In this document: positions 9,704 through 31,929 of the stretch, piece by piece | How positions within the stretch are numbered: position 1 is the stretch's first letter | Layout of the letters: each line of letters starts with the position of its first letter | Virus record (IMG/VR): IMGVR_UViG_3300032116_000838 | Coordinates: 1 to 32,257 of that record | Source: a virus | Length of the DNA: 32,257 nucleotides | Strand: one strand, 5' to 3' | The notes under the pieces: generated by a model | The model's database searches: none | Told to the model about the DNA's origin: nothing | Seen by the model: the letters and a program-made list of their open reading frames with translations, nothing else | Translations under genes and position numbers: made by a program

Positions 9704-9704
9704 T

Positions 9705-10631: not shown

Positions 10632-10863
10632 AAGTAGACACTACGGAGACGTGGGAAAATGGATTGAAAAAGTAATTGACTCTTGTAAGACTGTTGATCA
10701 AGTTATAACAACAAGAAAATTAATTAGAAACTTTGATAAACAAATACAAAATAAACATATCGACGCTTACTGGCATACATACTATTATGAGTTAATACAA
10801 CCACTTGAGTATTACCTTCAAAATAAAGGCGACGAAATCTTTAATGAAAAACTCAAATCATGA
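10621..10863 (+). CDS. Small helical protein, paralogue of 30375
   Basis: 80 residues. Core IEKVIDSCKTVDQVITTRKLIRNF (about 15-38) aligns without gaps with the product at 30375-30581 (I-x-K-[VI]-x-S-C-x-T-x-x-Q-[VL]-x-[TS]-x-K-L-[IF]-x-N-F), so the two are paralogues. Function unknown. Starts within the last 11 bases of rfbB and ends with an ATGA overlap. Confidence 0.7.
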   Translation: MENRSRHYGDVGKWIEKVIDSCKTVDQVITTRKLIRNFDKQIQNKHIDAYWHTYYYELIQPLEYYLQNKGDEIFNEKLKS

Positions 10864-11105
10864 CAGGATACCTAACACAAACACTTGGAGAATGGATGGT
10901 TAAAGATCAGAATGATGATAAACTCTATCCATTATGTGAAGAAACAAAAAAATGGTTACTCAAAGAAAGTACAAAAAAATTCTTGAAAGAAGATTTAGAA
11001 GTGGTTTTTGATTTTATTATCAAAGGAGAATATTGTGAAACCAAAGAACAGATGACCAAAAATTATTTTGCAAAAATTAAACGAGTAGAACACGACAGCC
11101 TATAA
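10860..11105 (+). CDS. Small hypothetical protein, 81 aa
   Basis: Soluble, charged, helical (LTQTLGEWMVKDQNDDKLY, then EETKKWLLKESTKKFLKEDL, then EYCETKEQMTKNYFAKIKRV). No family recognised. ATGA overlap upstream; five bases before the next gene, so co-transcribed with the sugar genes. Confidence 0.65.
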   Translation: MTGYLTQTLGEWMVKDQNDDKLYPLCEETKKWLLKESTKKFLKEDLEVVFDFIIKGEYCETKEQMTKNYFAKIKRVEHDSL

Positions 11106-11109
11106 AGTT

Positions 11110-12018
11110 ATGAGTGAATTTGGTATTAAGGTATCTGGATGTTTGGGTGATATTATAAATGTCACACCTTTAATAAAATATATAAGTAGATGTCACAATG
11201 TTAAGTTACACTTAGAGACAAATTTACCTAATCTTTTTATAAATAATCCATATATAAAAAAAGTTTATGATACTAATTCTGGTGAAATAATTCCTGAAAA
11301 CGTTTTAATTTACGACTGCAATATCCACCAAAATAACGGGATTCAAAAACAAATAAGAAAAATGTCAATGTTCGATTATTTTTCAACTTCATTAGGATTT
11401 CAAGTTCTACCTGAAGAAAGAACATTAGAGTTTTATCCTGATCCTTTAGATTTTGAATTACCAAGTGGAAAATATGTAGTTTTAAATCCATCAATAACTT
11501 GGGAATCGAGAACTTGGCCTAAAGAAAAATGGGAGGAATTGGCTAATAAAATTTTATCTTCAGGACTTAAAGTTGTTATTGACGGTAAAGACGTAAATTA
11601 TGGGGATGATAAAAAAACATTCCATAACATTAATAATGAGAATATAATAAATACTGGTAATAAGTTAAACTTATCACAACTTTGGCATTTATTGAATAAT
11701 AGTTTGGCTGTTGTGACTTTAGATACGGGTATGTTACACTTTGCTGGTACTACAAATGCACATATAATTGAAGTTGGTAGTGCTATTCATCATTATTATA
11801 AGACTCCATGGAGAAATGGTAGTCAAGAATATAAACATACATTTGTTGGTGGATCTTGTAAGTTATTTTGTCAATCTGATATGAAATATAATACTAATGG
11901 ATCAAATAAAATAACTGATGGGTTCCCAAGTCACGGATGTTTTGAAAATAAACCGACATTCGAATGTCAACCATCAGTAAACGGAGTATTCAACGCCGTT
12001 TTAGAATTATTAAAGTAA
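11110..12018 (+). CDS. Glycosyltransferase family 9-like (heptosyltransferase-like)
   Basis: 302 residues with the layout of ADP-heptose:LPS heptosyltransferases: N-terminal GCLGDIINVTPLIKYI, a middle LNPSITWESRTWPKEKWEELA, and the C-terminal sugar-nucleotide region LWHLLNNSLAVVTLDTGMLHFAGTT. The C-terminus adds a cysteine-containing stretch (SCKLFCQSD, SHGCFENKPTFECQP) seen in some phage and environmental relatives. Substrate unknown; it may glycosylate phage proteins or alter host surface sugars (inference). It is followed closely by a methyltransferase and a second glycosyltransferase. Confidence 0.82.
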   Translation: MSEFGIKVSGCLGDIINVTPLIKYISRCHNVKLHLETNLPNLFINNPYIKKVYDTNSGEIIPENVLIYDCNIHQNNGIQKQIRKMSMFDYFSTSLGFQVLPEERTLEFYPDPLDFELPSGKYVVLNPSITWESRTWPKEKWEELANKILSSGLKVVIDGKDVNYGDDKKTFHNINNENIINTGNKLNLSQLWHLLNNSLAVVTLDTGMLHFAGTTNAHIIEVGSAIHHYYKTPWRNGSQEYKHTFVGGSCKLFCQSDMKYNTNGSNKITDGFPSHGCFENKPTFECQPSVNGVFNAVLELLK

Positions 12019-12649: not shown

Positions 12650-13777
12650 ATGATTGAAAAAATTCCAGTTGTACTATATTGTACGGAAAATTATTTAGAA
12701 GGATCTTTAAATTTAATTAGAAGTCTAAATTTATATCACAACGATTTAACTTTCTATCTATATACCGTTAATTTTTTATACAAACCAACAATAGAAAATG
12801 TTAATAGTGTTTTTATCACTGAGGAACAAATAGATAGTAATATCCAATTTAAAGGTACTAGAAATGACATTGGAAATACAAATGTTTATAAAGCAATTTT
12901 TTTAAAAAGTAGAATTATATTACATTCATTAGAAACTTTAAAATTAAATAATACAATATATTTGGATTCAGACTTATTACCAACAGGTAATATCTCAAAT
13001 TTGTATCAATATTTTGATAAAATAACACATTACCCATTAATCCAACAGGGAATATATGAATATCAAATTGCTTTTGGTAGGGGAAATCCATTTCATAATG
13101 GGGGATTTGATGAAACAAATATTTTGGAATACCCATTAATGAAAAAACATTTCATAAATATACAAAATAGAAAACCTTATTCTGTCGCTTCAGTAATGTT
13201 ATATAACCAAAATTGCATTCAATTCATTAGAGAATATAATTGGTTAAATAATTTAGCATTTGATATGACAAGAGATGAAATTGAATATTTTTACCCTTTT
13301 TGTGATGAAACATCAGTCAATACATTACTTTGGAAATACCAATATAATGATAGATTACCTCTGATGCAAATGAATATTAGTAAAATTGAAAATGTACTCG
13401 AATATTTTGAATCAAATTATAATGAAGAACTTGAAGTAGAACCGTTTGTCTTCGTACCAAAAAATTCTGAAAGAAAAAGATTCATATTTTTTCATGGCAT
13501 CAAAGGTAAAATGTCTGATGATACATTCATGTTCCAACAAAATATGTTTAAATATAGATTGGATAATAACGAAAATAAGATGTACATTTCTTCCAATGTA
13601 AATTTTAGTAGAGATCTTGAAATTAATATTTTTGACAACGATCAAAAAACATATTCATTGATAACAACAATTAATAAAGGAATAGAGTATTGGATATCAA
13701 CATCTAAACAATTTTTAGATTATAAAAAGTTAATTGTTAAAATATACGACGACGGAAAACTAATTTTTAAAATATGA
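12650..13777 (+). CDS. Putative GT-A glycosyltransferase
   Basis: 375 residues. The N-terminal ~270 residues look like a GT-A nucleotide-sugar transferase: IPVVLYCTENYLEGSLNLIRSL at the start and a DxD metal site in IYLDSDLLP (Asp106, Asp108), later HNGGFDET and PFCDETSVNTLLWKY as in GT8-like enzymes. The C-terminal ~90 residues are beta-rich and could be a separate carbohydrate-binding module. The gene looks more AT-rich than its neighbours, possibly from recent acquisition (visual impression only). Confidence 0.68.
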   Translation: MIEKIPVVLYCTENYLEGSLNLIRSLNLYHNDLTFYLYTVNFLYKPTIENVNSVFITEEQIDSNIQFKGTRNDIGNTNVYKAIFLKSRIILHSLETLKLNNTIYLDSDLLPTGNISNLYQYFDKITHYPLIQQGIYEYQIAFGRGNPFHNGGFDETNILEYPLMKKHFINIQNRKPYSVASVMLYNQNCIQFIREYNWLNNLAFDMTRDEIEYFYPFCDETSVNTLLWKYQYNDRLPLMQMNISKIENVLEYFESNYNEELEVEPFVFVPKNSERKRFIFFHGIKGKMSDDTFMFQQNMFKYRLDNNENKMYISSNVNFSRDLEINIFDNDQKTYSLITTINKGIEYWISTSKQFLDYKKLIVKIYDDGKLIFKI

Positions 13778-14217: not shown

Positions 14218-14447
14218 AAAAACTATTTTTAATTTTAACCACAGCAATTGTGGTATCTTCTTGTGATGGAGGGAGCGGTAACTACAAATATGTGATTTAT
14301 GACAATCGAGGAATGGTATATGAATGTAATTTCTATAACAAAAATGAAGATGGGTGTGTTATGTTTAATGATAGACCTGGTAAAGACAACACACCTGGTA
14401 CACCAACAATTTTATGTGGGAATTATACAATTCAAAAAATGAAATGA
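14214..14447 (+). CDS. Small lipoprotein, 77 aa
   Basis: Signal peptide MKKLFLILTTAIVV with lipobox SSC (lipidated Cys17), then DGGSGNYKYV. The mature domain of ~60 residues is beta-like with three more cysteines (Cys38, 47, 68). No family recognised. ATGA overlaps on both sides. One of several tiny lipoproteins in the window. Confidence 0.72.
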   Translation: MKKLFLILTTAIVVSSCDGGSGNYKYVIYDNRGMVYECNFYNKNEDGCVMFNDRPGKDNTPGTPTILCGNYTIQKMK

Positions 14448-15796
14448 AAAATCCATCAGGAAATAAATTAGAGAAACTTGTCTTTGGGATGTTTGACCAA
14501 ATGGTTGAAGGTGCCGACAAGTATGTGACAAAACAAGGATCAACTTGGTTGATCTTCACCGAAAGTAGAAAATGGGTGATTGAGTTCACAAAAGATAAAA
14601 CCTTATGGTTCAACTATAATGTATTTCAAAATGAGTTGGATCTGATCGGTAAGGACTGCACCGAAGAAAGAGATTTGATTAAGAACTGGTTTGAATCAAG
14701 ATTTTTGAATAAACCAAAGATTGATGAAACTTTGGACAATGCTGCTAATATGATTCATCATATTGAAGACACCATTCAAAATGGGGTGAAAGAGGCCCAT
14801 CATGTTGATGTTATGAAGTTTTTTGATAAAAAAATGGAAAATACAATTCAAAATGGGGTGAAGAACACCTACCACTTTCAAACTGAGATTCCTAACCAGG
14901 TTGAAGACGTCATTCAAGAGGGGGTGAAACGCACTTTTGACATGGAATTCCGAAACCAGTTAAGTGTTGAAGACACCATTCAAGAGGGAGTGAAGGACAC
15001 CCTAAAAATATCAAACAAGCGTTCAAAGTCAGTTGAAGACACCATTCAAAATGGGGTGAAAGAAACAACACCTAGTGGTTATTTGGGTTCAATAGAGATG
15101 AAAGGGAAAATAGTTCATCAAATTGAATCTCCAAAACAAAATAATGAGGTTGAAGACACTATTCAAAATGGGGTAAGACACACCAAATCTTACAACTATA
15201 CCCGCAAGCGTTTCGTTGAAGACACCATACAAAATGGTGTTAAAGAAACCAAAGAGGATAGACTTTTTCGTACCATACATGTTATGAATACAATTAAAAA
15301 TGGAGTGAAAGAAACTAAAGAAAGTATGTTGGAAAGTTTGGAACAAATGGACCACCAGGTTACTAATAGTGAGATTACAGAAAACATTAACGACGCAATT
15401 GAAAATGGTGTTAAAGAAACTAAAGAAATTTCAAATATTAACTTAATGTCTGAAATTTTTAAGGTTAATGCGAAACAAGCAATAAGAGATGGTGTTAAAG
15501 AACTTAAAGTATGGAAATCCAATAGATGTGAAGAACACGGTTATTTTGAATTTGTTGATGGGATTCCAACATACACACCTATGATTCAAGTTAAGGATGT
15601 ACTTGAAAATGGTGTTAAAGAAATACAACCACTACCAGCACAAGATGGTAATAGAGATTGGGGTTTATATTATCACAGACAAGAAGATAGAACAAAACCA
15701 CATACAGAATATGTGAAAGAAGTTATTGAGGATTCTTACAATCATATGGGTAGAGTTGAAGGTGTAATTAGAAATACAAATAAAGATGGGATTTGA
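14444..15796 (+). CDS. Repeat protein with eleven DTIQNGVK-type motifs
   Basis: 450 residues from MKNPSGNK. Residues 1-95 form a mixed domain (MVEGADKYVTKQGSTWLIF, KWVIEFTKDKTLWFNYNVF, ERDLIKNWFESRFLN). The rest carries eleven copies of a motif close to E-D-T-I-Q-N-G-V-K-E-T, starting at residues 108, 132, 154, 176, 198, 237, 259, 281, 316, 344 and 384. Most successive copies are 22 residues apart; sequence between copies is unrelated. Copies 1-7 are nearly identical in DNA, later ones drift. Family and function not recognised. Repeats of this type suggest a repeated binding element or amphipathic helix. It overlaps the lipoprotein gene by ATGA and the next gene by 11 bases. Confidence 0.78.
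   Translation: MKNPSGNKLEKLVFGMFDQMVEGADKYVTKQGSTWLIFTESRKWVIEFTKDKTLWFNYNVFQNELDLIGKDCTEERDLIKNWFESRFLNKPKIDETLDNAANMIHHIEDTIQNGVKEAHHVDVMKFFDKKMENTIQNGVKNTYHFQTEIPNQVEDVIQEGVKRTFDMEFRNQLSVEDTIQEGVKDTLKISNKRSKSVEDTIQNGVKETTPSGYLGSIEMKGKIVHQIESPKQNNEVEDTIQNGVRHTKSYNYTRKRFVEDTIQNGVKETKEDRLFRTIHVMNTIKNGVKETKESMLESLEQMDHQVTNSEITENINDAIENGVKETKEISNINLMSEIFKVNAKQAIRDGVKELKVWKSNRCEEHGYFEFVDGIPTYTPMIQVKDVLENGVKEIQPLPAQDGNRDWGLYYHRQEDRTKPHTEYVKEVIEDSYNHMGRVEGVIRNTNKDGI
14765..15619 (+). repeat. Eleven in-frame coding repeats, mostly 66-bp period
   Basis: Copies of about 26 bases close to GAAGACACCATTCAAAATGG plus GGTGAA start at 14765, 14837, 14903, 14969, 15035, 15152, 15218, 15284, 15389, 15473 and 15593. 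Every interval is a multiple of three and six of the ten are exactly 66 (14837 to 15035 and 15152 to 15284, with 72 before). The intervening DNA is not similar between copies. This is a protein repeat, not a CRISPR array. Confidence 0.9.
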
Positions 15797-16418: not shown

Positions 16419-17585
16419 ATGAATAAGTTAGATAAACAATACCAAGATTTACTCCAAACTATTTTAGATTACGGAGTTGAAAAGAAAGACCGAACAGGTA
16501 CAGGAACCAAAAGTATTTTTGGTTATACCATTCGTCATAACATGAAAGATGGGTTCCCATTACTTACAACCAAGAAGATGGCTTGGAAAACTATGGTGAC
16601 CGAGTTATTATGGTTCCTTCGTGGTGATACAAACATTAAGTTCCTTGTTGATAATGGTTGTCATATTTGGGATGGTGATGCGTACAAGAATTACTGTACC
16701 GCTTATAAAGATGGTCACGAATTTTATGAGGATGAACAAGTAAAGCGTTCTTTTACTCAAGAAGAATTCATCAACAAAATCAAAACAGATGATGAGTTTG
16801 CTAAAAAGTGGGGTGAATTAGGTCCCGTGTATGGTAAGCAATGGAGAAGTTGGGGTAGTAATATAATAGATGAGTTGGGTAATGTTTATACCAATGAAGT
16901 TGATTACGATATTCAAAATGGAAAATTACCATATGGTTCTTCCAATAGAAAATTTGTTATTGATGAAATTAAAAAATTAAACCCGTCAATAGACCAAATC
17001 CAAAACCTAATCCGTGACCTTAAAACAAATCCAGACTCAAGACGATTAATGGTTTCAGCTTGGAATGTTGGAGAATTAGACCAAATGGTACTTCCACCTT
17101 GCCATTATGGATTTCAAGTTTATACAAGAGAGTTGAGTTCACAGGAACGCAAGGACATTTACGATAAGTCAAACCACGCGAAAGATATCTTTCCAACCGA
17201 TGAAAATGGATGGAATAACTTATTTGATGGATTTAATATTCCAACCAGAGCAATCTCTTTAATGTATAACGCTAGAAGCCAAGATGTTCCACTTGGAACA
17301 CCATTTAATTTGGCATCTTATGGATTACTTCTAACAATATTAGCAAAGGAGGTTAATATGGTTCCTGATGAGTTAATTTCAAATATGGGTGATTGTCACA
17401 TATACCTTAATCAGATTGATGGTGTAAAAGAACAATTAACAAGAGAACCATTTGAGTTGCCAACCCTTAATCCATTCCCAACTTATGAAGGGTCAAGACC
17501 ATCTATAGAATCTTATGTTATTGGTGATTTCACACTTAAAAACTACCAATCACACCCGACTATCAAAATGCCGCTTTCTAACTAG
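16419..17585 (+). CDS. thyA: Thymidylate synthase (ThyA type)
   Basis: Makes dTMP from dUMP with methylenetetrahydrofolate for phage DNA synthesis. Visible: DRTGTGT (24-30), phosphate-binding Arg25; ELLWFLRGDTNI (62-73); LGPVYGKQWR (134-143); DSRRL; SAWNVGELDQM; catalytic Cys228 in LPPCHYGFQ; RSQDVPLGTPFNLASY (286-301); and the C-terminal MGDCHIYLNQ. At 388 residues it is ~120 longer than E. coli ThyA; extra sequence lies at about 86-130, 148-188 and 238-280, but the reading frame is intact and all core motifs are present. A hairpin and a homing endonuclease gene follow directly. Confidence 0.93.
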   Translation: MNKLDKQYQDLLQTILDYGVEKKDRTGTGTKSIFGYTIRHNMKDGFPLLTTKKMAWKTMVTELLWFLRGDTNIKFLVDNGCHIWDGDAYKNYCTAYKDGHEFYEDEQVKRSFTQEEFINKIKTDDEFAKKWGELGPVYGKQWRSWGSNIIDELGNVYTNEVDYDIQNGKLPYGSSNRKFVIDEIKKLNPSIDQIQNLIRDLKTNPDSRRLMVSAWNVGELDQMVLPPCHYGFQVYTRELSSQERKDIYDKSNHAKDIFPTDENGWNNLFDGFNIPTRAISLMYNARSQDVPLGTPFNLASYGLLLTILAKEVNMVPDELISNMGDCHIYLNQIDGVKEQLTREPFELPTLNPFPTYEGSRPSIESYVIGDFTLKNYQSHPTIKMPLSN

Positions 17586-17591
17586 TTTTTT

Positions 17592-17649
17592 TAGGACTAC
17601 CCTTTAACTTTTTAACTTTTGTAGATATTTATATTAAAAGGTAGTCCTA
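17592..17649 (+). promoter_or_regulatory. Long hairpin ending on the start codon of the homing endonuclease
   Basis: AGGACTACC (17593-17601) pairs with GGTAGTCCT (17640-17648); the base pair outside it joins T17592 to A17649, the A of the ATG. After one C-A mismatch, five more pairs (TTTAA 17603-17607 with TTAAA 17634-17638) extend it inward around a 26-base loop. In read-through transcripts from thyA this would bury the start region; transcripts begun inside the loop would lack the 5' arm. Confidence 0.72.
17626..17633 (+). promoter_or_regulatory. Late-promoter-like motif TATTTATA
   Basis: TATTTATA with 15 bases to the ATG at 17649, the same placement as before the endolysin, 21696 and 31963 genes. 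Transcription would start near 17640, at the edge of the 3' hairpin arm. Confidence 0.5.
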
Positions 17650-18383
17650 TGATTGGAATTTATAGAATAAAAAATTTGAAAAACAAAAAGTGTTATTATG
17701 GTTCTTCTAAAAATATAGAAAAAAGATGGAGAACACATTCAAACAACTTAAAAAACGGAAAACATCATAATATCCACTTACAAAGGTCTTGGGATAAGTA
17801 TGGTGAGGATAATTTTGTGTTTGAGTTGGTTGAGGAGTGTAATGAAACTATATTACTTGAGTTAGAACAAAAATACTTGGATTTAAACCCTGAGTTCAAT
17901 ATAGGGATTAAATCAAGTGGAGGAGATAATCTTACAAAAAACCCAAATAAAGAAGACATTGTTCGTAAAATGACTCAATCAGTTAAAAAAAGATATGAAT
18001 TAATGTCTGAAGATGAAAGAAAAGAAAAACATTCCCAACCGATGGATAAAAATCCAAATTGGAAAGGTGGTACAAGTTTTAAATATTGTGAATGCGGTGT
18101 AAAAATATTACCAACCAACAATATTTGTATAAATTGTAGAGATAAGAGTGGTGATAAAAATCCATTTTTTGGAAAACAACATACAGAAGAGACAAAACGA
18201 AAATTAAGTGAATTTAGAAAAGGAACTTATAATGGAGAACAAAATATACCTATAATAATTGATGATATTGAATATAGGTCTGCCGGTGAAGCGTCTAAAT
18301 TACTTAACATACCTATGGTAACTATTAGATGGAGAGTTAAAAGTAAAAACAAAAAGTTTGACAATTACAGATATAAAAATTAA
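17649..18383 (+). CDS. GIY-YIG homing endonuclease with NUMOD motifs
   Basis: 244 residues, free-standing homing endonuclease of the I-TevI/Seg type. N-terminal nuclease: GIY (3-5), YYG (16-18), Arg26, His30, His40, Glu71/Glu73 and Asn84, matching the order of I-TevI active-site residues. Then two NUMOD3-like DNA-binding motifs (DKNPNWKGG at 133, DKNPFFGKQHTEETKRKL at 169), a possible zinc site Cys147/149-Cys160/163 between them, and a NUMOD1-like helix-turn-helix (YRSAGEASKLLNIPMVTIRW, 209-228). Such enzymes cut a phage genome lacking the gene so it is copied in. It lies between thyA and a small gene without interrupting either. Confidence 0.92.
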   Translation: MIGIYRIKNLKNKKCYYGSSKNIEKRWRTHSNNLKNGKHHNIHLQRSWDKYGEDNFVFELVEECNETILLELEQKYLDLNPEFNIGIKSSGGDNLTKNPNKEDIVRKMTQSVKKRYELMSEDERKEKHSQPMDKNPNWKGGTSFKYCECGVKILPTNNICINCRDKSGDKNPFFGKQHTEETKRKLSEFRKGTYNGEQNIPIIIDDIEYRSAGEASKLLNIPMVTIRWRVKSKNKKFDNYRYKN

Positions 18384-20719: not shown

Positions 20720-20745
20720 AAAACCCCGATTTGAGTCGGGGTTTT
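20720..20745. terminator. Bidirectional terminator between convergent genes
   Basis: AAAACCCCGA (20720-20729) pairs perfectly with TCGGGGTTTT (20736-20745) around a six-base loop. T runs exist on both strands, so it can end the plus-strand unit and the minus-strand endolysin gene. Confidence 0.9.
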
Positions 20746-20750
20746 GTGTT

Positions 20751-21587
20751 TTACTTAAGTAAGTTATAATACTCTTTGAAATGTTTGATTCGATCAGGTA
20801 AGCCAATAGTTCCACCATTCACTCTCTTTGTCACTGCAGTTACAGTTGCATCATCCGTACCTTTATCACAGATTGACCATAATTTATTTGAGTCAAAGAA
20901 GAATGCTGCCGATGCTAAAGGATATTTGGTTGCAACTAAATCAGGGTTCGCAACACAATCTTCACCAATGAATTTTGTAAAGTTAGTATAGTTTGCCTTA
21001 CCTGTTAATTGAATGTAACCTCTACCTCTAAATTTAAAACCTTCTTTAGATGCTTCATCACCATTACCCATTCTTGATGCGTAAACACGAGATGCGATTT
21101 TTTCAGGTTGACGAGCATAAGACTCATTCAGGTTACCAGGGAAATACTTACCAAAGATTTTCTTTAAACCATCGGCAGAGTAATTCAAGTTCTCACTAAC
21201 CGCTTTAAAACCGCCTGACTCGTGACCACATTGCGCTAAGAAATGAGCTAGTCTTAAATTATTTGTGATGTTGAATTTTTTGGCAGTTTCAGGTATCTGT
21301 GCAAGAACTGCATCAGGAATGTGACCCTTTAATTTTTCAATATTTAATGGACCTCCTGATGGGATAACCACATCCTCTTTAATAACTTCTGCGGTAGGTT
21401 TTGACTCACCAAATAGTTTTGCCCATGTGGCATCACCAACGATACCATCATCTTTTAAACCATTTGCTTTTTGCCAAGCTTTAACCGCGGCTTCTGTTTT
21501 AGGACCAAATTTTCCAATTGCTTCTACACCTAATTTTTCTTGGAGTTTTTTTACGTCAGCTCCTTCTGACCCAACTTTTAGTACCAT
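20751..21587 (-). CDS. Endolysin: peptidoglycan-binding plus GH19-like domain
   Basis: 278 residues from MVLKVGSEGADV. Residues 5-58 are a peptidoglycan-binding type 1 domain (DVKKLQEKLG, GKFGPKTEAAVKAWQ, DGIVGDATWAKLFG). A GH19-type chitinase/lysozyme domain follows from about 85 to 278: HFLAQCGHESGGF with likely catalytic Glu123, second acid candidate Glu132, RGRGYIQLTGKANY (187-200), and VTKRVNGGTIGLPDR (252-266). It should cleave cell-wall glycan for host lysis. No signal peptide, so release probably needs a holin. A start at 21626 would add 13 residues and cover the promoter motif. It is the only minus-strand gene in the window. Confidence 0.9.
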   Translation of the reverse strand: MVLKVGSEGADVKKLQEKLGVEAIGKFGPKTEAAVKAWQKANGLKDDGIVGDATWAKLFGESKPTAEVIKEDVVIPSGGPLNIEKLKGHIPDAVLAQIPETAKKFNITNNLRLAHFLAQCGHESGGFKAVSENLNYSADGLKKIFGKYFPGNLNESYARQPEKIASRVYASRMGNGDEASKEGFKFRGRGYIQLTGKANYTNFTKFIGEDCVANPDLVATKYPLASAAFFFDSNKLWSICDKGTDDATVTAVTKRVNGGTIGLPDRIKHFKEYYNLLK

Positions 21588-21602
21588 AATTTTTGATTTT
21601 CC

Positions 21603-21610
21603 TATAAATA
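21603..21610 (-). promoter_or_regulatory. Late-promoter-like motif for the endolysin
   Basis: On the minus strand the bases read TATTTATA and end 15 bases before the endolysin ATG. The plus strand shows TATAAATA. Confidence 0.5.
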
Positions 21611-21673
21611 GTAAATTCTCAGACAAAGTAAAGATTTTATTATAAAAAAAACCTCAGTTCGTGAATTTTGAGA

Positions 21674-21681
21674 TACTTATT
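21674..21681 (+). promoter_or_regulatory. Late-promoter-like motif, divergent
   Basis: TACTTATT, six of eight matches to TATTTATA, ends 14 bases before the ATG at 21696. It lies back to back with the endolysin motif in a 108-base divergent intergenic region. Confidence 0.4.
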
Positions 21682-21695
21682 AGAAAAAGGGAATT

Positions 21696-22295
21696 ATGGG
21701 ATACACAAGAGAACAGGTCGAGGCTGCCGTCAAAGCCAAAGGTTATGTTTACTTTGAAGACACAAACAACAAAGGGTTCGATGTAAACATTGTAGGTATA
21801 AGAAATGCTGCTACCGGTCAAAAGGTAACAAATGCGTTTGATGACTTATTAACAATAAGTTATAAAGATGAAACAGGTGCGTGGAAATATCACGAATGGC
21901 CAGCAACCACAGATCCTGGAAAAAAAGGTGTAATGGAATATCACAACGCCGCAGGAGTTGCTAGACTTGTTGAAGGACAATACAGAGGTTCACACGGAAT
22001 CGGTCTTCATCAAGGAAAGTACGAAGCATTAAAACAAGCAAAAAATGTTAAAGTTTATCGTGACCCAAATCGTGATTTAACTTATGACGAAACAAAAATT
22101 GCTGAGGGTGTATTTGGTATTAACATTCACAAAGCTGGCGCTGATTCAACTTATGTAGAAAATTGGAGTGAAGGATGTCAAGTTTTCAAAAGATCCGCAG
22201 ACTTTGAAGCGTTTATGAAAATCTGTAGAAAGGCTAGAGATACTCACGGAAACTCTTTTACTTACACATTGATTGAATCAACAGACATAAAATAA
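21696..22295 (+). CDS. Phage protein with L,D-transpeptidase-like signature
   Basis: 199 residues, no signal peptide. Visible: FDVNIVGIRNAATGQKV (28-44), a FDDLLTISY strand, ATTDPGKKGVMEYHN, GQYRGSHGIGLHQGKYEAL, and near the C-terminus GINIHKAG followed by NWSEGCQVFK. A conserved His followed by S-x-G-C resembles the active-site arrangement of L,D-transpeptidase (YkuD-like) wall enzymes, and related proteins sit near lysis genes in phages. The position, divergent from the endolysin, supports a cell-wall role. The fold assignment is inference; the context makes lysis or wall remodelling most plausible. Confidence 0.6.
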   Translation: MGYTREQVEAAVKAKGYVYFEDTNNKGFDVNIVGIRNAATGQKVTNAFDDLLTISYKDETGAWKYHEWPATTDPGKKGVMEYHNAAGVARLVEGQYRGSHGIGLHQGKYEALKQAKNVKVYRDPNRDLTYDETKIAEGVFGINIHKAGADSTYVENWSEGCQVFKRSADFEAFMKICRKARDTHGNSFTYTLIESTDIK

Positions 22296-22320
22296 AAACT
22301 AAAACTTAAGAACCACGTAA

Positions 22321-24228
22321 ATGAAACAATTCAAAAGTCTGTTATTCGGACTTTTATTCTTTTTACCATTCATTGGTAAAGCTCAAGTACCCGCAGCACC
22401 ATCAAACGGATTGTGGGGTATCATTGCAGCCCAATATCAAGTTGGGACAACAGCACAAGGCACAACAAACGCAAAGATTACATTACAAAACACAACCCTT
22501 ACAAAATTTGCAGGGGTACAGTTTAGAGTATTCTACGATAATGTAGCGTTTACAAATGCAACCGTATCTCTTATCGGATCATCAACAAACTTAGACCTTC
22601 AGTTTATCACCAACACAACAAATGGATACATTACCATTACTTTGGTTTATACAGGTCCAAGTGCGACTTACACGATTCCAAATGGTGAGAGATTTCTAAT
22701 TACCTTTACTCACGCACCAGCGGCAACATTTAATAACTTGGCGTCTATCTCCAACTTAACTTGGACGGGACCTCAGTCTTTTACACCATATGCCGCTAAA
22801 CAAGATGGTATGGACACAACATTAAGTGTCCATAACTATGGTGGTGTGTTTACTCCTGTGAACTTTGCTTATCATGGAACGTTCACAAACGTTACAGGTT
22901 CTCCTGCCAAATATCTGAATTTAGCATTACAGAGAAGACCATTTGGTGGAAACACTTGGACACAACATTCTACTTATGTTACTGATATCAACGGGGACTT
23001 CAACATCTCAGTTCCATTAGATACTACATATTGGGATGTGAGACTTGCAATTCAAGGAGACACAATGGGTGTTGGTAATATTATTTCGTCAACAGATGCT
23101 CAGCTAATCAATCAGTGGGTTTTAGGTAACGGAACTATGACTGGATTTGATTACTACACGGCAGATGTGAATGGTTCTAATAGTACAACTATATCTGATG
23201 TATGGGGTGTGTTTGGTAGAATCTCAGGAAGATTTAACGTATGGCCTAACAACACAAAAGATGTTAAATTCTTTACTGCATCTGAATATACAACTATTAA
23301 CGGATCGGCAACTAACTACACATCAACAATCGCAGGGGTAACAAACTTTACATTTGATATCTTACCGGGTCAACCTGACTCTGTGGTTTATTATGTGATG
23401 GTTCCTGGTGACGCTAACGGTACAGGTTACAACATGGCTCGTGTTACTCCAATTGAAGTATTGGTTGGACCCATACCAGGTTTAGAGTCACAAATCTATA
23501 ATGTAATTGATACTAAAGTTGAGTATGATTTCCCAACATCAACAATTGAAGTAAATGTTCCTCACATTTCTGTTGAAGCTGGAAACTTGGTTGAATTACC
23601 TGTTAAAGTTTTCACAAACGGAGAAGAGTTATCATCACTTCAGTTTGGATTGAAATATGATACTGACCTATTAGAATTTAAAGGTGTGTATTCTTCATCA
23701 AATGCTATGGAATGGATTACATATGTAAATCCAAACGATGGTCAAGTTGATTGGGGTGGATTTGATCCTACAAATAATGAACAACCATTAGTAGATGGTG
23801 ATGAGGTTGTGACTTTACAATTTATCGCAAAACAACCACAGAACCTATGGGAAGAAAGTCCTCTTTACACTTCTTTGAAATTCGCAGGGACAACTCAGTC
23901 TGAAGATTTAACAATCACACCGACAAATGGAATACTTCAAGTACTAAAGAGTAATATGGGTGTGGTGATTGGAAATACAATCTCTGTAGTTCCTAATCCT
24001 GTAGTTGATGAAGTTACCATTTCATTTGAAGTTAAAGAAACAACAAACGCAAACCTATCAATTTCGGATGTTGTTGGAAGAAAGTTAATTACAATCTTGG
24101 ATGGTCAATTACCAAACGGAGAGTATAACTATGTTGAGAACTTAGGTAGTTTAGAAAGAGGACTTTACTTAGTTACATTAACTATGGAAAACGGAGAAAC
24201 TAAAGTTTCAAAAATTGTAAAACAATAA
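22321..24228 (+). CDS. Secreted cohesin/dockerin-like protein with T9SS sorting domain
   Basis: 635 residues. Signal peptide 1-22 (KSLLFGLLFFLPF, cleavage after GKAQ). Residues ~35-160 and ~412-543 are two cohesin-like beta domains (e.g. VEAGNLVELPVKVF, LQFGLKYDTDLLEFKGV). Between them is a dockerin-like part with an EF-hand-like loop (DVNGSNSTTISD, 282-293), GRISGRF (299-305), and PGDANGTG (362-369). Residues ~556-635 form a type A T9SS C-terminal sorting domain (VVPNPVVDEVTI, SDVVGRKL, LERGLYLVTL, KIVKQ end). The family knowledge: such tails send proteins through the Bacteroidota type IX system to the surface. Such a protein is unexpected in a phage; it could reach the surface of infected cells. 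Confidence 0.82.
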   Translation: MKQFKSLLFGLLFFLPFIGKAQVPAAPSNGLWGIIAAQYQVGTTAQGTTNAKITLQNTTLTKFAGVQFRVFYDNVAFTNATVSLIGSSTNLDLQFITNTTNGYITITLVYTGPSATYTIPNGERFLITFTHAPAATFNNLASISNLTWTGPQSFTPYAAKQDGMDTTLSVHNYGGVFTPVNFAYHGTFTNVTGSPAKYLNLALQRRPFGGNTWTQHSTYVTDINGDFNISVPLDTTYWDVRLAIQGDTMGVGNIISSTDAQLINQWVLGNGTMTGFDYYTADVNGSNSTTISDVWGVFGRISGRFNVWPNNTKDVKFFTASEYTTINGSATNYTSTIAGVTNFTFDILPGQPDSVVYYVMVPGDANGTGYNMARVTPIEVLVGPIPGLESQIYNVIDTKVEYDFPTSTIEVNVPHISVEAGNLVELPVKVFTNGEELSSLQFGLKYDTDLLEFKGVYSSSNAMEWITYVNPNDGQVDWGGFDPTNNEQPLVDGDEVVTLQFIAKQPQNLWEESPLYTSLKFAGTTQSEDLTITPTNGILQVLKSNMGVVIGNTISVVPNPVVDEVTISFEVKETTNANLSISDVVGRKLITILDGQLPNGEYNYVENLGSLERGLYLVTLTMENGETKVSKIVKQ

Positions 24229-24250
24229 ACTCAAAATAAACAAAAACAAA

Positions 24251-24583
24251 ATGTCAGAAGAAACACAAGACACAAACGACGGAACGTGGTCAGGATTAAA
24301 AAAGACCATCGTTGGTACATTATCAACAGTAATTGCTGGTGGTGGAACATGGTTAGGTGTTATGTTATATGGTGGAGGTGAGGAAGAACCAAAAGAGGAA
24401 ACAAAAACAGAACAGTCTGGAGGTCAAGCACCAATCACTATTAACGTACAACAAAATCAAGAGAATAAACAAAAAACTGAGAACAATAATGGTGGTGGTG
24501 TAATTCGTGAAAGAATTATCGAAAAACCTGCGGCTCAACAACCAACCCAACCTCAACCTAAAAAAGAGGAAGAGTCTTGGTAA
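24251..24583 (+). CDS. Single-pass membrane protein with disordered Gln/Asn/Pro tail
   Basis: 110 residues: short acidic N-terminus, one membrane helix (about 18-41, IVGTLSTVIAGGGTWLGVML), then a tail rich in Glu, Gln, Asn and Pro (INVQQNQENKQKTENNN, AAQQPTQPQPKKEEE). Such layouts occur among phage holin-like or spanin-like proteins, and the lysis genes are nearby, but no family was recognised. It sits between the T9SS protein and a second membrane protein. Confidence 0.65.
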   Translation: MSEETQDTNDGTWSGLKKTIVGTLSTVIAGGGTWLGVMLYGGGEEEPKEETKTEQSGGQAPITINVQQNQENKQKTENNNGGGVIRERIIEKPAAQQPTQPQPKKEEESW

Positions 24584-24606
24584 TAAACAATAAATAAAAA
24601 AATAAA

Positions 24607-24888
24607 ATGGCACAAAAGAAAACAAAAAAATCATTCTTAGTAAGAATGTTTATGGATCAAAACGACATCAACGAAAAATCAATCGTAGGTTTCGGATCAT
24701 TTTTAATGATGGTAATTTGTTTAGGTGTAGATATCTACACAGGATTTCACGGACAAGAAATGCCAATCAACAAATTTATCTACGATGGTTTTTTATGGAT
24801 CACTTTAGGTTCATTTGGAATTGCTTCAGTTGACAAATATTTGTCAGGTAAAAATCAGAACAACGAAGAAGAAGAAGTAGAAGGGTAA
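24607..24888 (+). CDS. Two-helix membrane protein, holin candidate
   Basis: 93 residues: basic N-terminus (KKTKKSFLVRMFMDQNDINEKS), helix 1 about 26-47 (VGFGSFLMMVICLGVDIYTG), helix 2 about 58-77 (FIYDGFLWITLGSFGIASVD), and a charged tail KYLSGKNQNNEEEE. Size and topology fit a class II holin, and the family of small phage proteins with D-K-Y-L after the last helix looks familiar, but context alone cannot prove lysis. One-base overlap (TAATG) with the CsgG-like gene. Confidence 0.65.
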   Translation: MAQKKTKKSFLVRMFMDQNDINEKSIVGFGSFLMMVICLGVDIYTGFHGQEMPINKFIYDGFLWITLGSFGIASVDKYLSGKNQNNEEEEVEG

Positions 24889-25628
24889 TGAAAAGAATAC
24901 TTTACATATTACCACTTTTATTGATTGGATGTAAAACATTACAAGCCCAGCCCCCTCAAACAGGAGGGGGTATTGGCTCTGTTAAGACAGAACAATATGT
25001 TGCTGATTTTGAAAAGAAACAATCAATAGACTCGGTTGCTGATTACGACGGATCAATCCAAGTTCCAATCCAATTACTAAAGATTGGTATTAATGAAGAA
25101 CTTTACGAATTATATCCTGAGTTAAAAGATAAAAGAGTAGGTCTTGGTGTAACAAATATTGTAATTGAATATTTGGAATACACTAACAGATTTATTTTCA
25201 CCGAAGAAAAGGAAGAGATCAAACAAAGAATGATTGCACAAGATAAAGCATCAGACAAGGGAGTATCTTCAAATAAAATCGAAGTGAAAGGTAATGTTGT
25301 ATTGGCTAAGTACTTTGTTTATATTGAGGTATATGATTTCTCAGTATCAGAAGACGAAGTTGTAAAAGTTAATGGACAACAAACCGTAAATCAAACTACA
25401 AGATTAGGTCTTCAGATCAAATTTGTAGATGCTGAAACAAGTCAAGTGATTGTAGGATCAGGACTTGGAGAAGCAGTAACAATTAAAACAACATCAATCT
25501 TGGGTGATATCTCAGATGATGTTAAATTCAACCAATCAACTGTAGGTATATCTACAAAAAAAGCTTTAGAGACAGCTTCATCAAGAGTTGTAACTAGACT
25601 TATATCAAAAGGTGTATTTCCAAAGTGA
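24888..25628 (+). CDS. CsgG-like outer-membrane lipoprotein
   Basis: 246 residues. Lipoprotein signal MKRILYILPLLLIGC with lipidated Cys15. The body resembles CsgG, the nonameric curli secretion pore: GLGVTNIVIEYLEYTNRFIF (84-103), a charged helix with RMIAQDKAS, KYFVYIEVYDFSV, a strand pair TTRLGLQIKFVDAETSQVIV, then FNQSTVGISTKKALETASSR near the end. CsgG-type proteins secrete amyloid subunits or act in envelope transport; here no CsgA, CsgB, CsgE or CsgF is evident. Coupled by ATGA to the beta-barrel gene, so the two products likely act together. Confidence 0.8.
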   Translation: MKRILYILPLLLIGCKTLQAQPPQTGGGIGSVKTEQYVADFEKKQSIDSVADYDGSIQVPIQLLKIGINEELYELYPELKDKRVGLGVTNIVIEYLEYTNRFIFTEEKEEIKQRMIAQDKASDKGVSSNKIEVKGNVVLAKYFVYIEVYDFSVSEDEVVKVNGQQTVNQTTRLGLQIKFVDAETSQVIVGSGLGEAVTIKTTSILGDISDDVKFNQSTVGISTKKALETASSRVVTRLISKGVFPK

Positions 25629-27295
25629 GAATAAACATTTGTATATCTTTGTTGTTCGTCTTGTTTAGTTTCTTCAATCTAAACGCACAGACCTACAACT
25701 ATTCTTACACCGATCCTTGTACTGGAAATGTAAAAAATATCATAGTCCCCATCAATGGCTCAGTCACGGTGGGGTATTATGGTTTTGTCGAGAACTTCAC
25801 TCAACAACAATTTGTCGATGGAACTTTTGAAACTTGGGTCAACCAAGTTTTTTCACAATATGACGGATCTCCTTGTTCAGAAATAATTGGACTTGGTGGT
25901 CAAATAAACATGGCTCAAGATGTCGCATTAAACACGATAGGTATTATCAACTCATTATCATCTTTAATGGACATATCAAACGGAGCCACAGATTTTCTTA
26001 GCGGTAGTTTAACCGCAGCATCTAATTCTTCTAACACTAACGGAAACAAAGGTAACAAGAAGAATGGGAATAGTTCCCAAAATGGAAGTGGAAATAATAA
26101 TACAACAACAAATACTAATAACACCACGACCAATAACAATCAAATACAAAATAATGGAACAAGTAACACTAATGAAGGAAGTACAACCACTTCTGGAACA
26201 AATGAAACAAGTTCAAACAACGGAGGAAATGGAACCACTAATCAAAATGGTGGAACTCAAAATCCAACATCAGCAGGAGGAACTACAACTGAGGGTGGAT
26301 CAAATGAGAATGGAAATTCACAGGCTATCGAGCCTATAAACAATCAAAACACTAATACAAATGAAAACAATAGCAATACTTCTGTCGGTGGCAATACTGG
26401 GGAGTCTAGTGGGAATGGGACTAGTGGGAATGGTGAAGGAAATAATCAAACAAACCAAGAAGTAACAAATAATGGTTCTTCAACTAACCCTAACGGTAAT
26501 GGTTTTAATAACGGTGGGAACTCTGGTATGGGGAATAATAGTGGAAACCCACCCAATGGGGAGGAAACTACAACCCAAACAGAGGAACAAGGAGGACAAA
26601 CAAACATTACCCAAGGGGCAACCAAAACAGTAAATCAGAATAGGGAAGGTGGAAAACCCACAGTCATTGCATCAAGCGACTTTGTGGGTTTTAACTTTCA
26701 AAACTCTGAAGTTAGAACAGGATTAAAATTAACAGGGGGATATCATAACATGCGTTGGGACGGTGAAACTGCTCGTGGTGGTTTAGTTGATTATGTATCG
26801 GCACAGAGAGGACCAAACATGACAGGATATCACGCATGGATCAACAAAAGGAGTGTGGGACTTTTATCAGGAACTTTATCTTTAGGATTTGAAGGTAGGG
26901 GATCTGTTTATGGTACTTTGGCGGGAGGACAAATGTTCATGTTCCCAAAGGTGCCGAGTCTTAAAGCGGTTTATATGGGAACAATATCATACGGACAGGT
27001 CTATAAAACACCATTTATCGGATCAGCACTTATTGCTGGTGGAATGTACGACTTAAAGTTTGGTAAAAGAATAGATATAAAGTTAATGACTTTATTTGTC
27101 TATTCACCATATGTAAGTTACTATAACGATTTAGTATTGAAATCACCTTATGTTATTCTACCAAGTTTAGGAACTAACATAAGTATAACGAAAAGATTTA
27201 AATTCAATATAAATGCAGGAGGGGCGTGGGCAATCAAGGTAAACACTTTAAATTATACAATAACATGTGGAACAAGATTATTAGTTGGACAATAG
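25625..27295 (+). CDS. Secreted protein with Asn/Gly linker and C-terminal outer-membrane barrel
   Basis: 556 residues. Signal peptide 1-22 (ISLLFVLFSFFNLNAQ). Residues 23-130: a small domain (YNYSYTDPCTGNVKNII, ITVGYYG-like strands). Residues ~133-345: very low complexity, dominated by Asn, Gly, Thr and Ser, likely disordered. Residues ~350-556: alternating amphipathic strands (TGLKLTGGYHNMRW, LLSGTLSLGFEGRGSVYGTL, SLGTNISITKRFKFNIN, YTITCGTRLLVGQ) as in an outer-membrane barrel. The long linker could span from periplasm or surface to a partner. No named family. Overlaps CsgG by ATGA and the next gene by 31 bases. Confidence 0.72.
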   Translation: MRINICISLLFVLFSFFNLNAQTYNYSYTDPCTGNVKNIIVPINGSVTVGYYGFVENFTQQQFVDGTFETWVNQVFSQYDGSPCSEIIGLGGQINMAQDVALNTIGIINSLSSLMDISNGATDFLSGSLTAASNSSNTNGNKGNKKNGNSSQNGSGNNNTTTNTNNTTTNNNQIQNNGTSNTNEGSTTTSGTNETSSNNGGNGTTNQNGGTQNPTSAGGTTTEGGSNENGNSQAIEPINNQNTNTNENNSNTSVGGNTGESSGNGTSGNGEGNNQTNQEVTNNGSSTNPNGNGFNNGGNSGMGNNSGNPPNGEETTTQTEEQGGQTNITQGATKTVNQNREGGKPTVIASSDFVGFNFQNSEVRTGLKLTGGYHNMRWDGETARGGLVDYVSAQRGPNMTGYHAWINKRSVGLLSGTLSLGFEGRGSVYGTLAGGQMFMFPKVPSLKAVYMGTISYGQVYKTPFIGSALIAGGMYDLKFGKRIDIKLMTLFVYSPYVSYYNDLVLKSPYVILPSLGTNISITKRFKFNINAGGAWAIKVNTLNYTITCGTRLLVGQ

Positions 27296-28437
27296 TCCTT
27301 TTTACTTTCTTTTCTTTAGATGCTCAACCATTTACATATTCGGGTTATGTTTATGGTGCAAATAATCAAGGTATATCAAATGTAGCGGTAAACCTTTATG
27401 GTAGAAGGGTTGACCCTTATGAAGTAACATTTCCCACTTACAGTACTGCTGCTGCTTACAATGCAGGAACCGTGATTCCTTCATCAGACGATGTAACTCA
27501 TGGACCATTCAACATTGGATTTACTTTTACCTTTTTTGGTAATAACTATACCCAATTTTACGTAGGTTCAAATGGGTGGATTGGATTTAGTGCGAATCAA
27601 ACAACAGGTTATACCGCAGCATACATACCAAATGCAGGATCACCAAGGAATGTTATCATGGCAGATTGGGAAGATTTATTTCCAGGATCTGCAAACATTT
27701 ACTATACTACAATAGGGACAGCACCGAATAGAAAATTAGTGGTGTCCTTTAATTCAGTTCCACATTATGGATGTAGATCAAACCTACACACCTTTCAGTT
27801 TGTTCTTACTGAAACTTCTAACACAATCGACATAAATTACCTATCAAAACCATTGTGTACTGGTAATAACTCAACAGCAGGTCTTGTGAATATTGATAAT
27901 ACAAATGTGGTTCCTGTAGGAGGAAGAAACGCATCTGCTTGGTCTACCTCAAATTCGAGTGTAAGATTCACACCATCACCAGCAGAAACAGTTTTCACGC
28001 TAAAAGGAACTTATCTTACAAACGCATCAGGTTACTATAACATAGTTCCAAATTTAGACGCTCAATCCTTTGTATTCGAAGTAAGGTTGGAAACAATACC
28101 AATTACATCATATACGATTACAGATGCTAGAGCTCCTCTTATGATTTTATTAAATAACACAACAATGAACTCAAAGTTGTGGTATCAAATGGACATTAAC
28201 GGAGATACTAAAATTACTGTTTCAGATTCGTATAATATTTATGGAAGAATTTCAGGAAGATTTACATCTTGGTTCTCACCTAACTATAGAATATTCACAC
28301 CGGCTCAATGGTCGGCGATAAATGTAGGAACCACAGATCTCAGAGTTTTATATCCTGGAGTTCAGTCCATGACTATAACACCTGTGAATGGGGGATCAAC
28401 TAACTTTCATGTTATAAGAACAGGAATAACAAATTAA
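27265..28437 (+). CDS. Secreted beta-rich protein sharing the GRISGRF module
   Basis: 390 residues from MWNKIISWTIVLFTFFSLDA; this start gives a clean signal peptide ending DAQ, whereas the ATG at 27226 does not. An N-terminal adhesin-like strand (SGYVYGANNQGISNVAVNLY) is followed by a beta-sandwich typical of Bacteroidota surface proteins (FNIGFTFTFFGNNYTQFYVG, NGWIGF, MADWEDLFPG, LHTFQFVLTETSNTIDINY). Near 309-352 it has DINGDTKITVSD, YGRISGRF and FTPAQWSAIN, clearly related to the 282-326 region of the T9SS protein at 22321. No T9SS tail is present, so it may be carried out by another route or by its partner. Confidence 0.75.
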   Translation: MWNKIISWTIVLFTFFSLDAQPFTYSGYVYGANNQGISNVAVNLYGRRVDPYEVTFPTYSTAAAYNAGTVIPSSDDVTHGPFNIGFTFTFFGNNYTQFYVGSNGWIGFSANQTTGYTAAYIPNAGSPRNVIMADWEDLFPGSANIYYTTIGTAPNRKLVVSFNSVPHYGCRSNLHTFQFVLTETSNTIDINYLSKPLCTGNNSTAGLVNIDNTNVVPVGGRNASAWSTSNSSVRFTPSPAETVFTLKGTYLTNASGYYNIVPNLDAQSFVFEVRLETIPITSYTITDARAPLMILLNNTTMNSKLWYQMDINGDTKITVSDSYNIYGRISGRFTSWFSPNYRIFTPAQWSAINVGTTDLRVLYPGVQSMTITPVNGGSTNFHVIRTGITN

Positions 28438-28441
28438 AATT

Positions 28442-28894
28442 ATGAAAAATATAATCTTACTACTCAGTATGTTACTACTTGGTAACCTCGCAATGGCTCA
28501 ACAATGTGTTTATGTTGATTCAGTTTACAACACAGCTAAATTAAAAGAAATGGGAAACCGAGACATTCGTTTTGGTATTAGACAAATTGTTGAAGACGAA
28601 CTGTCTGAAAAGTTTTGTTTATCTGAAGATGGAAAGGATATTGATGTTGAGGTGTATTACTTTGGATTACCGAAAACGACAATTAGAATTGTTGGTGTTG
28701 AGAAAACAGAATCAGTTACACAGGTTGGTGTAAGATTATATTACGATGGTAAATGTTATGAAGGTATTGGGGAATCTGAAACTGAGATTAAAGCAATCAT
28801 GATTGAAGTAAAAGAGGGTATGTTACCTTTTGAAAAGATGACAGTATCATCAGCACTAAAAAAGGCTATTCACGAAGCCGTTATCAAAATATGA
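28442..28894 (+). CDS. Periplasmic protein with signal peptide, 150 aa
   Basis: Signal peptide MKNIILLLSMLLLGNLAMA, cleavage before QQCVY. The mature part alternates helices and strands (FGIRQIVEDELSEKF, DIDVEVYYFG, TQVGVRLYYDGKCYEG, SALKKAIHEAVIKI). The strand order and final helix recall the CsgG/TolB-N-like periplasmic fold, but this is weak. Start context AAAATT-ATG; ATGA overlap with the metallopeptidase gene. Confidence 0.68.
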   Translation: MKNIILLLSMLLLGNLAMAQQCVYVDSVYNTAKLKEMGNRDIRFGIRQIVEDELSEKFCLSEDGKDIDVEVYYFGLPKTTIRIVGVEKTESVTQVGVRLYYDGKCYEGIGESETEIKAIMIEVKEGMLPFEKMTVSSALKKAIHEAVIKI

Positions 28895-29343
28895 AAATAT
28901 GGCAACTTTTGATATTGTTAATGTTTTGGTCATCATCTTTCTCGCAAATCCGTATTGCAGATGTTGGAGATGGTTGGAAAAATAAAGTAGAACAAGCTTT
29001 AGACACCATAAAGAAATATGATGTTCAGAAGTATTATCTAATTATGGAGAACTGCTCTAATGTTGCGTATTGGAACGGAGGATTCTCAACGACAGAAGGA
29101 GATAGTACAATCACCATCCCAACAAGAGAAATGAAAGACGGAAATATCTATAACATTTCTGCGATACTTGTTCATGAATCCCTACATTTATTCTTTAAAA
29201 GAACAAACTTCAACCTAAAACCTAATCTTGAAGAAGTTGTATGTTATCAACACGAGTTGGAGTTTTTAGAAAAAATACCTTGTGTTGATTATTGGTTAAT
29301 AGAAAATGCTAAAAACAAAATCAAATTTTATTCAAAACCATAG
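28891..29343 (+). CDS. Secreted HExxH metallopeptidase-like protein
   Basis: 150 residues with a signal peptide (KIWQLLILLMFWSSSFSQ, about 1-19) and a zinc-binding HESLH motif (His95, Glu96, His99) in AILVHESLHLFFK; a downstream Glu in LEEVVCYQHELEF (114/115) could be the third ligand, as in gluzincins. Small and without a visible propeptide. A zinc endopeptidase in the periplasm or outside the cell is likely; the substrate could be a neighbour's product or host surface protein (inference). Last gene of the surface cluster; a short hairpin and a promoter follow. Confidence 0.72.
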   Translation: MKIWQLLILLMFWSSSFSQIRIADVGDGWKNKVEQALDTIKKYDVQKYYLIMENCSNVAYWNGGFSTTEGDSTITIPTREMKDGNIYNISAILVHESLHLFFKRTNFNLKPNLEEVVCYQHELEFLEKIPCVDYWLIENAKNKIKFYSKP

Positions 29344-30724: not shown

Positions 30725-31432
30725 ATGATACTTACAATAATTTCTGACACTCACAACAAACACAAACACGTTACAGGTGATTTGAAGGGTGGTGATTTAT
30801 TATTACATGCCGGTGACCTTTCTTCTATGGGTTACGAACACGAGATCCGTGAGTTTGCTAAGTGGTATAATGGTTTAAACAACTACCACCATAAAGTGTT
30901 TATTTCTGGTAACCACGATTGGGGATTTCAAAACAATGTTGAGAAAGTCAAAAGTATCTTATCTGAATATGACACTATCAATTACCTACAAGATGATTGG
31001 ATTACAGTTGGAGATGGTGACCCACATGATAATAACACACAAACTGTTAAAATTTGGGGTAGTCCATGGCAACCTGAGTTCTATAATTGGGCGTTTAACT
31101 TACCACGAAATGGTGAAGAGTTGAAGGCGGTATGGGATATGATTCCTGAAGATATTGATATCTTGATTACTCACGGTCCAGCTTGGGGATTCTTGGATGA
31201 TGTAGAAGGTCGTCGAAATGATCACTTGGGTTGTGAGTTACTTGCAGAACGAATCAAACAAATAAAACCAAAGATCCATATCTGCGGACACATCCATACT
31301 GGTTACGGACATTACTATGATGGACATACACACTACTTCAATGCTGCAGTATTGAATGAACGATACTTATACGCTCATTTACCTTGGCACATTGATTGGA
31401 ACCCAATAACAAATGAAATACAATTTTTATAA
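30725..31432 (+). CDS. Calcineurin-like metallophosphoesterase
   Basis: 235 residues with all metal-binding motifs of the calcineurin-like superfamily: SDTHNKH (Asp8, His10), LHAGDLSS (Asp31), SGNHDWG (Asn63, His64), LITHGPAWG and CGHIHTGYG. Probably a two-metal phosphodiesterase or phosphatase; substrates in this superfamily range from nucleic acids to cyclic nucleotides. A role in degrading a host defence signal or nucleic acid is speculation. Full length; its last base is the first base of the rfbC start (TAATG). Confidence 0.88.
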   Translation: MILTIISDTHNKHKHVTGDLKGGDLLLHAGDLSSMGYEHEIREFAKWYNGLNNYHHKVFISGNHDWGFQNNVEKVKSILSEYDTINYLQDDWITVGDGDPHDNNTQTVKIWGSPWQPEFYNWAFNLPRNGEELKAVWDMIPEDIDILITHGPAWGFLDDVEGRRNDHLGCELLAERIKQIKPKIHICGHIHTGYGHYYDGHTHYFNAAVLNERYLYAHLPWHIDWNPITNEIQFL

Positions 31433-31929
31433 TGGAGAAAGCACACTTTATTGAAAACAGAGTCTTTAGAGATAAAAGAGGGACATTCAGCCCATTAGAT
31501 CTTGCCAAGTTAGATAAGAATTGGTTACAGAGTAATATTAGTGTAAACCCCCGTAAATACACACTTCGGGGGTTACACTTTCAAAAGAATGAATACGCTC
31601 AAGCCAAACTAATTAAAGTTATATCTGGTAGGATATTAGACTTTGTTGTTGATCTTAGAATGGTATCAGAAGATTATAATAAAATTTTCTTTTTTGATAT
31701 GAAAGAGGGTGATGAGGTATATGTGCCAAGATATTTTGCTCACGGATTCATAACAACCGAAGAAAACTCGGTAGTTCAATATTTGGTTGATAATGAATAC
31801 AGTCCTGAGAATGAAGGAGTTAAAGTTTGGACTGACTATCCTGAGATAGTTAAAGAAGTACAAAAATACAATGAGTGGTTCCTTGAGGAATTTGTAGTCA
31901 TACACGATAAAGATTTGGTTGAAAAATAA
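31432..31929 (+). CDS. rfbC: dTDP-4-dehydrorhamnose 3,5-epimerase
   Basis: 165 residues, cupin fold RmlC type; epimerises dTDP-4-keto-6-deoxyglucose, the product of RfbB. Visible: RGLHFQ with catalytic His49, AKLIKVISGRILDFVVDLR (58-76), VYVPRYFAHGFIT with His104, and YLVDNEYSPENEGVKVW with Tyr123. Slightly shorter than the common ~180 residues but with all core strands. It supplies the step after rfbB (9705) although 21 kb separates them. Confidence 0.9.
   Translation: MEKAHFIENRVFRDKRGTFSPLDLAKLDKNWLQSNISVNPRKYTLRGLHFQKNEYAQAKLIKVISGRILDFVVDLRMVSEDYNKIFFFDMKEGDEVYVPRYFAHGFITTEENSVVQYLVDNEYSPENEGVKVWTDYPEIVKEVQKYNEWFLEEFVVIHDKDLVEK

Follow-up and report, generated by a model that had tools for sequence, protein, structure and literature searches.

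Known phage systems with CsgG or T9SS cargo

Curli-type CsgG/CsgF modules have been reported in pelagimyophages (PMC7029224) and in the Methylophilales phage Melnitz (PMC9004378). Phage-borne T9SS cargo has been reported in Cryophage, where a T9SS type A tail and variable surface genes were described and superinfection was suggested (PMC7468147). Each of the two is thereby known on its own; their combination, as found here in a Bacteroidota phage, is new, and no report of a cohesin/dockerin/T9SS/CsgG-fold combination was found in the literature searched.

The cassette resembles the pelagimyophage and Melnitz modules, which belong to T4-like phages and have an exported CsgG near replication genes, preceded by small proteins and followed by exported partners, one of them with a PA14 domain. 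Unlike in HTVC008M, whose proteins score as true CsgG and true CsgF and where curlin repeats also occur, the CsgG likeness is seen only at the level of the fold, and CsgF and curlin are replaced as display parts by cohesin/dockerin modules and a T9SS tail. In HTVC008M itself, gp018 of the gp016-gp018 region (L244:8871-11963) has curlin repeats and PA14 above cut-offs, whereas the literature describes curlins as missing. The cassette also differs from Cryophage, in which enzymes and PA14 proteins are the cargo, in having a single conserved scaffold per genome as part of a fixed cassette.

Organization of the cassette

The window, i.e., the whole stretch of DNA analysed (32,257 bases), represents part of a large Bacteroidota phage; its IMG/VR record is classed as linear and is probably a fragment. 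The originally described genes and coordinates at 22321-29343 are confirmed, and the gene overlaps in the cassette are real (1-31 nt). The following features are all on the + strand.

22321..24228, scaffold and T9SS cargo, 635 aa: the signal peptide is followed by a weak cohesin-like domain at the N-terminus, a dockerin-like module, a cohesin (409-508) and the T9SS type A tail (558-635)
24251..24583, small protein, 110 aa: one weakly hydrophobic Gly/Thr-rich segment and an acidic/Gln/Pro-rich tail; in 34/35 distinct relatives
24607..24888, small membrane protein, 93 aa: holin-like by size and layout only; in 13/35 distinct relatives
24888..25628, exported protein with a predicted CsgG fold, 246 aa: lipobox LIGC present in the window
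25625..27295, barrel protein, 556 aa: conserved N-terminal domain with a Cys pair, helix, Asn/Gly/Thr disordered linker of about 220 aa, 12-strand barrel
27265..28437, slot protein, 390 aa: a variable middle lies between the signal peptide and a C-terminal dockerin-like module, which is a homologue of the one in 22321
27348..28438, segment exchanged among near-identical phages, from DNA comparison with the related locus L002
28442..28894, exported protein, 150 aa: second CsgG-like protein, by profile comparison a shortened relative of 24888
28891..29343, exported HExxH protein, 150 aa: putative small metallopeptidase; order and strand differ among relatives

The slot protein starts at an ATG within a longer ORF from 27226, and its signal peptide agrees with the start at 27265. 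The six products originally predicted to be exported all carry signal peptides of the Bacteroidota Q-rule type (PMC5837995) in the window. In a rule-based scan for SPI sites with Gln after the cleavage site, 84-96% of the members of all six exported families have such a signal, compared with 5% of the remaining ORFs of these loci (43 of 903). These signals fit a Bacteroidota host and probable export by that host. Of the two small proteins taken to be membrane proteins, 24607 has a distinct hydrophobic segment, whereas 24251 has only the weak Gly/Thr-rich one. The HES-x-H motif behind the proposed secreted peptidase at 28891 is kept in relatives, although the protein matches no Pfam family above cut-off.

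Several features lie outside the cassette. A 460-aa ORF at 14414-15796 has about ten degenerate copies of VEDTIQNGVKET and no Pfam match. At 16419-18383, a GIY-YIG homing nuclease that has an I-TevI-type zinc finger comes after thymidylate synthase, and a strong bidirectional terminator-like hairpin (20720-20745) lies between the 20465 ORF and a GH19 endolysin. The frequency of the Bacteroidota promoter pattern is no higher than chance. Genes for a nucleotide-sugar epimerase/dehydratase, GT9 and GT8 glycosyltransferases and a dTDP-sugar epimerase are found at 9684-12018, 12650-13777 and 31432-31929; judging by these sugar-modifying genes, the phage may also change host surface sugars.

Scaffold protein

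Among the window proteins, the 22321 product is the only cassette product with Pfam family matches above cut-off. Its cohesin (PF00963, E 3e-10) and its T9SS type A tail (E 1e-9 in Pfam and 4e-10 for TIGR04183) both exceed curated cut-offs, in agreement with the original prediction. The dockerin proposed there (PF00404) reaches only E 0.007 in the window, short of the cut-off. Among the genomes of 18 relatives, four have a match that exceeds it, and one of these four also has a stray match outside the cassette. The CsgG family that was named gave no Pfam match (see below). With a signal peptide and Por_Secre_tail/TIGR04183 above cut-off, 22321 qualifies by sequence as T9SS type A cargo. The tail is found in 26 of 27 scaffold family members, most of which have two cohesin-like domains, and it occurs exactly once per phage record, always in the scaffold (18/18 records). 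The scaffold gene is read as two ORFs, through a true split or a frameshift, in the immuto phages (gp014-gp015, L153:11598-13422) and at L233:4270-6162.

The cassette shares with cellulosome scaffolds the pairing of cohesins with dockerin-like modules on exported partner proteins. It differs from them in carrying lectins in place of glycoside hydrolases, in its degenerate dockerins and in being phage-borne, and the binding remains putative.

CsgG-fold and barrel proteins

The 24888 product was originally described as a CsgG-like lipoprotein. The fold is borne out, while a family match and conservation of the lipobox are not: CsgG PF03783 gave no match for the window protein and only a sub-threshold one for one relative (E 0.009-0.018), and the cysteine of the lipobox is missing from many relatives. 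Comparison of PDB sequences with the family profile gave nothing convincing, and hhalign of the family against true CsgG is collinear (E 0.005, probability 7.6%). In the AlphaFold2 model (mean pLDDT 72), Foldseek ranks 1-17 are all CsgG (best E 3e-8), and VIA alignment with solved CsgG gives Z 12.8 (162 residues aligned, 3.5 A), compared with 9-10 for PelC/LptE/FlgT. These results of structural modeling indicate that 24888 has a CsgG fold; a role as a pore is putative. The hairpin regions are shorter than those of CsgG, the second one is of low confidence in the model, and the amphipathic pattern is indistinct.

The 28442 product matches the CsgG-like family in profile comparison (probability 96.5%). 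Ribosomal S1 matches of this protein are weak and were judged spurious, and profile comparison with CsgE was negative. Among the window proteins and their relatives, no Pfam match to CsgF, CsgE or curlin-repeat partners was found.

The predicted structure of 25625 contains an outer-membrane barrel of 12 strands, as expected from the original prediction. The closest structures are autotransporter translocators, with NalP at Z 25.1 (VIA; 234 residues, 2.8 A); other 12-strand barrels score Z 18-19, and FapF 19.3. The aligned range with NalP opens at the helix, and the helix may therefore be placed as in autotransporters. The barrel is similar to NalP, EspP and FapF in having 12 strands and a preceding helix, probably in a matching place, but a 220-aa disordered linker separates helix and barrel and there is no large passenger, unlike in autotransporters. 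Its function is putative.

An exchangeable lectin slot

The 27265 gene is a swap slot, in which near-identical phages differ almost exclusively. DNA identity between the window and L002 is 91.4% at 21001-27347 and 93.6% from 28439, with no alignment at 27348-28438; one junction directly follows the signal peptide, and the other coincides with the stop codon. The same pattern is seen in L004 and L008. Among slot relatives, Pfam detects Lectin_C in 16 of 27 and Laminin_G_3 in 5, the others including PA14, pentaxin and GEVED; in the window itself, the variable middle of the slot protein matches no Pfam family, and no lectin domain is recognised. The C-terminal half of the slot protein corresponds to the dockerin-containing middle of the scaffold (hhalign 99.8%, E 3e-28). 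A diversity-generating retroelement was considered as the source of the variation, and PF00078 reverse transcriptase was found in none of 19 records.

Exported Endonuclease_NS proteins occur in 56 of 183 loci, mostly adjoining the slot and including immuto gp012. Neither the slot nor these nucleases figured in the earlier reading, and the exchangeable lectin slot is the strongest clue to function.

Distribution of the cassette

The scaffold, the barrel, the slot protein and the 28442 homologue lie with the CsgG-like gene on the same strand within 8 kb for 35/35 distinct CsgG-like proteins, which represent 49 CsgG-query loci with enough flank. This set comes from the closest 80 relatives, and the share may be lower among remote ones. 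Because of this conservation the cassette is not a chance assembly. The HExxH gene is present in 21 of the 35 distinct relatives. IMG/VR includes 150 stretches with relatives of the CsgG-like protein and 301 with relatives of the barrel, on contigs of up to 373 kb.

In cultured phages, tblastn detects relatives of the CsgG-like protein and the scaffold only in the Flavobacterium immuto phages. In these phages gp013 encodes the lectin and is followed by gp014/gp015 for the two-piece scaffold, gp016 for the small protein, gp017 for the CsgG-like protein, gp018 for the barrel and gp019 for the second CsgG-like protein.

The cassette is essentially absent from bacterial chromosomes. The GTDB collection (84,980 species) gave four matches: at L154 and L156 neighbouring genes match viral loci, and one further match is in a phage-like contig. 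At L157:8963-9106, a fragment of the CsgG-like gene at a bacterial contig end is joined within the gene to unrelated sequence. In Flavobacteriaceae, 1 of 299 genomes has a profile match, in a phage-like contig with an endolysin. A bacterial-host origin of the cassette was rejected as the matches are mostly in phage-like contigs or beside virus-like neighbours. Contiguity in chromosomes alone, which had been named as grounds for abandoning the idea, was thus not seen, and the view of a conserved phage-borne unit of exported products, including a CsgG-fold protein and an outer-membrane barrel, holds.

Possible functions of the cassette

The cassette is probably a lectin module of the cell surface or envelope. 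A more specific reading, put forward at somewhat less than even confidence, is that it remodels the envelope of the infected Bacteroidota cell by displaying an exchangeable lectin, carried by a cohesin scaffold that T9SS exports. Host Sec would export all six products with signal peptides, and the scaffold would reach the surface through host T9SS. Both the signal peptides and the sorting tail indicate use of host machinery rather than the phage's own export complex that was first proposed. The dockerin-like end of the 27265 protein would bind the scaffold cohesin or cohesins and so display the lectin. From the domain analysis, this joining of slot protein and scaffold is plausible at slightly under even chances. 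The slot protein has no T9SS tail of its own; the 12-strand barrel, together with the CsgG-fold protein and the latter's shortened relative, would form an outer-membrane conduit or anchor that brings out the lectin. The metallopeptidase might trim or process surface proteins.

Dockerin matches that are mostly sub-threshold and the missing recognised lectin domain in the window's slot stand against this explanation, and the proposed cohesin-dockerin binding is based on what is known from other systems. CsgG exports unfolded chains, and the exit of a folded lectin would be hard to account for. In a fuller version, which is less likely than not, a cellulosome-like viral lectin scaffold is assembled along two paths, with the scaffold leaving through host T9SS and the lectin through a conduit of the phage's CsgG-fold and barrel proteins, and the lectin cassette is exchanged in phage competition.

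As to purpose, the displayed lectin may occupy surface glycans that serve as phage receptors, so that sibling and rival virions cannot adsorb. Such superinfection exclusion by receptor occlusion is proposed tentatively; an exported endonuclease beside the slot would fit breakdown of incoming DNA. Alternatively, the lectin might make infected cells adhere to particles or to adjacent cells and so bring progeny into contact with new hosts, similarly to the 'sibling capture' proposed for pelagimyophage curli (PMC7029224). The lectin/PA14 domains and scaffold are consistent with adhesion, as is the parallel design of the HTVC008M module with its curlin-repeat PA14 protein, but clumping was not observed with Melnitz, which carries a related module (PMC9004378), and the exported nuclease and peptidase would be left unexplained. 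Receptor occlusion is slightly preferred, since the exchange affects the sugar-binding part and exported nucleases lie alongside; adhesion is only a little less likely, and the present data fit both.

Lysis control, in which the CsgG-fold protein and barrel open or weaken the outer membrane and the small membrane proteins act like holins, has been put forward for Melnitz CsgGF (PMC9004378) and would suit the endolysin-type genes directly upstream in the window (20751, 21696). It is improbable here: the cassette of the immuto phages comes after replication genes with the annotated endolysin about 6 kb beyond it, 24607 is often missing, and lysis needs no lectins, cohesins or T9SS tail. The cohesin/dockerin architecture and the relatives' exported nuclease could also point to a small cellulosome-like complex of lectin, nuclease and peptidase that scavenges surface carbohydrate or nutrients, a reading with little likelihood given that no glycoside hydrolase was found among the slot proteins scanned and that a short lytic cycle would offer little gain. 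Least probable is placement of the lectin on the particle. Exchangeable lectins do look like receptor-binding parts, but signal peptides and the T9SS tail are conserved, the immuto cassette is far from terminase, capsid and tail-spike genes, and each dockerin-like match elsewhere in the phage genomes consists of one calcium loop, in a protein that lacks a signal peptide. The suggestion that the cassette arms the virion is not supported, no link between the two having been found.

Implications

Since their first description in 2020 (PMC7029224), phage CsgG modules have lacked an established role. Bacteroidota phages provide a second build in which a CsgG-fold protein is coupled with carbohydrate-binding proteins, here with the binding part exchanged. 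The cultured pair of immuto phages and Flavobacterium sp. LMO8 makes the model testable. Overall, the cassette suggests a general strategy in which phages use a lectin to remodel the surface of the host.
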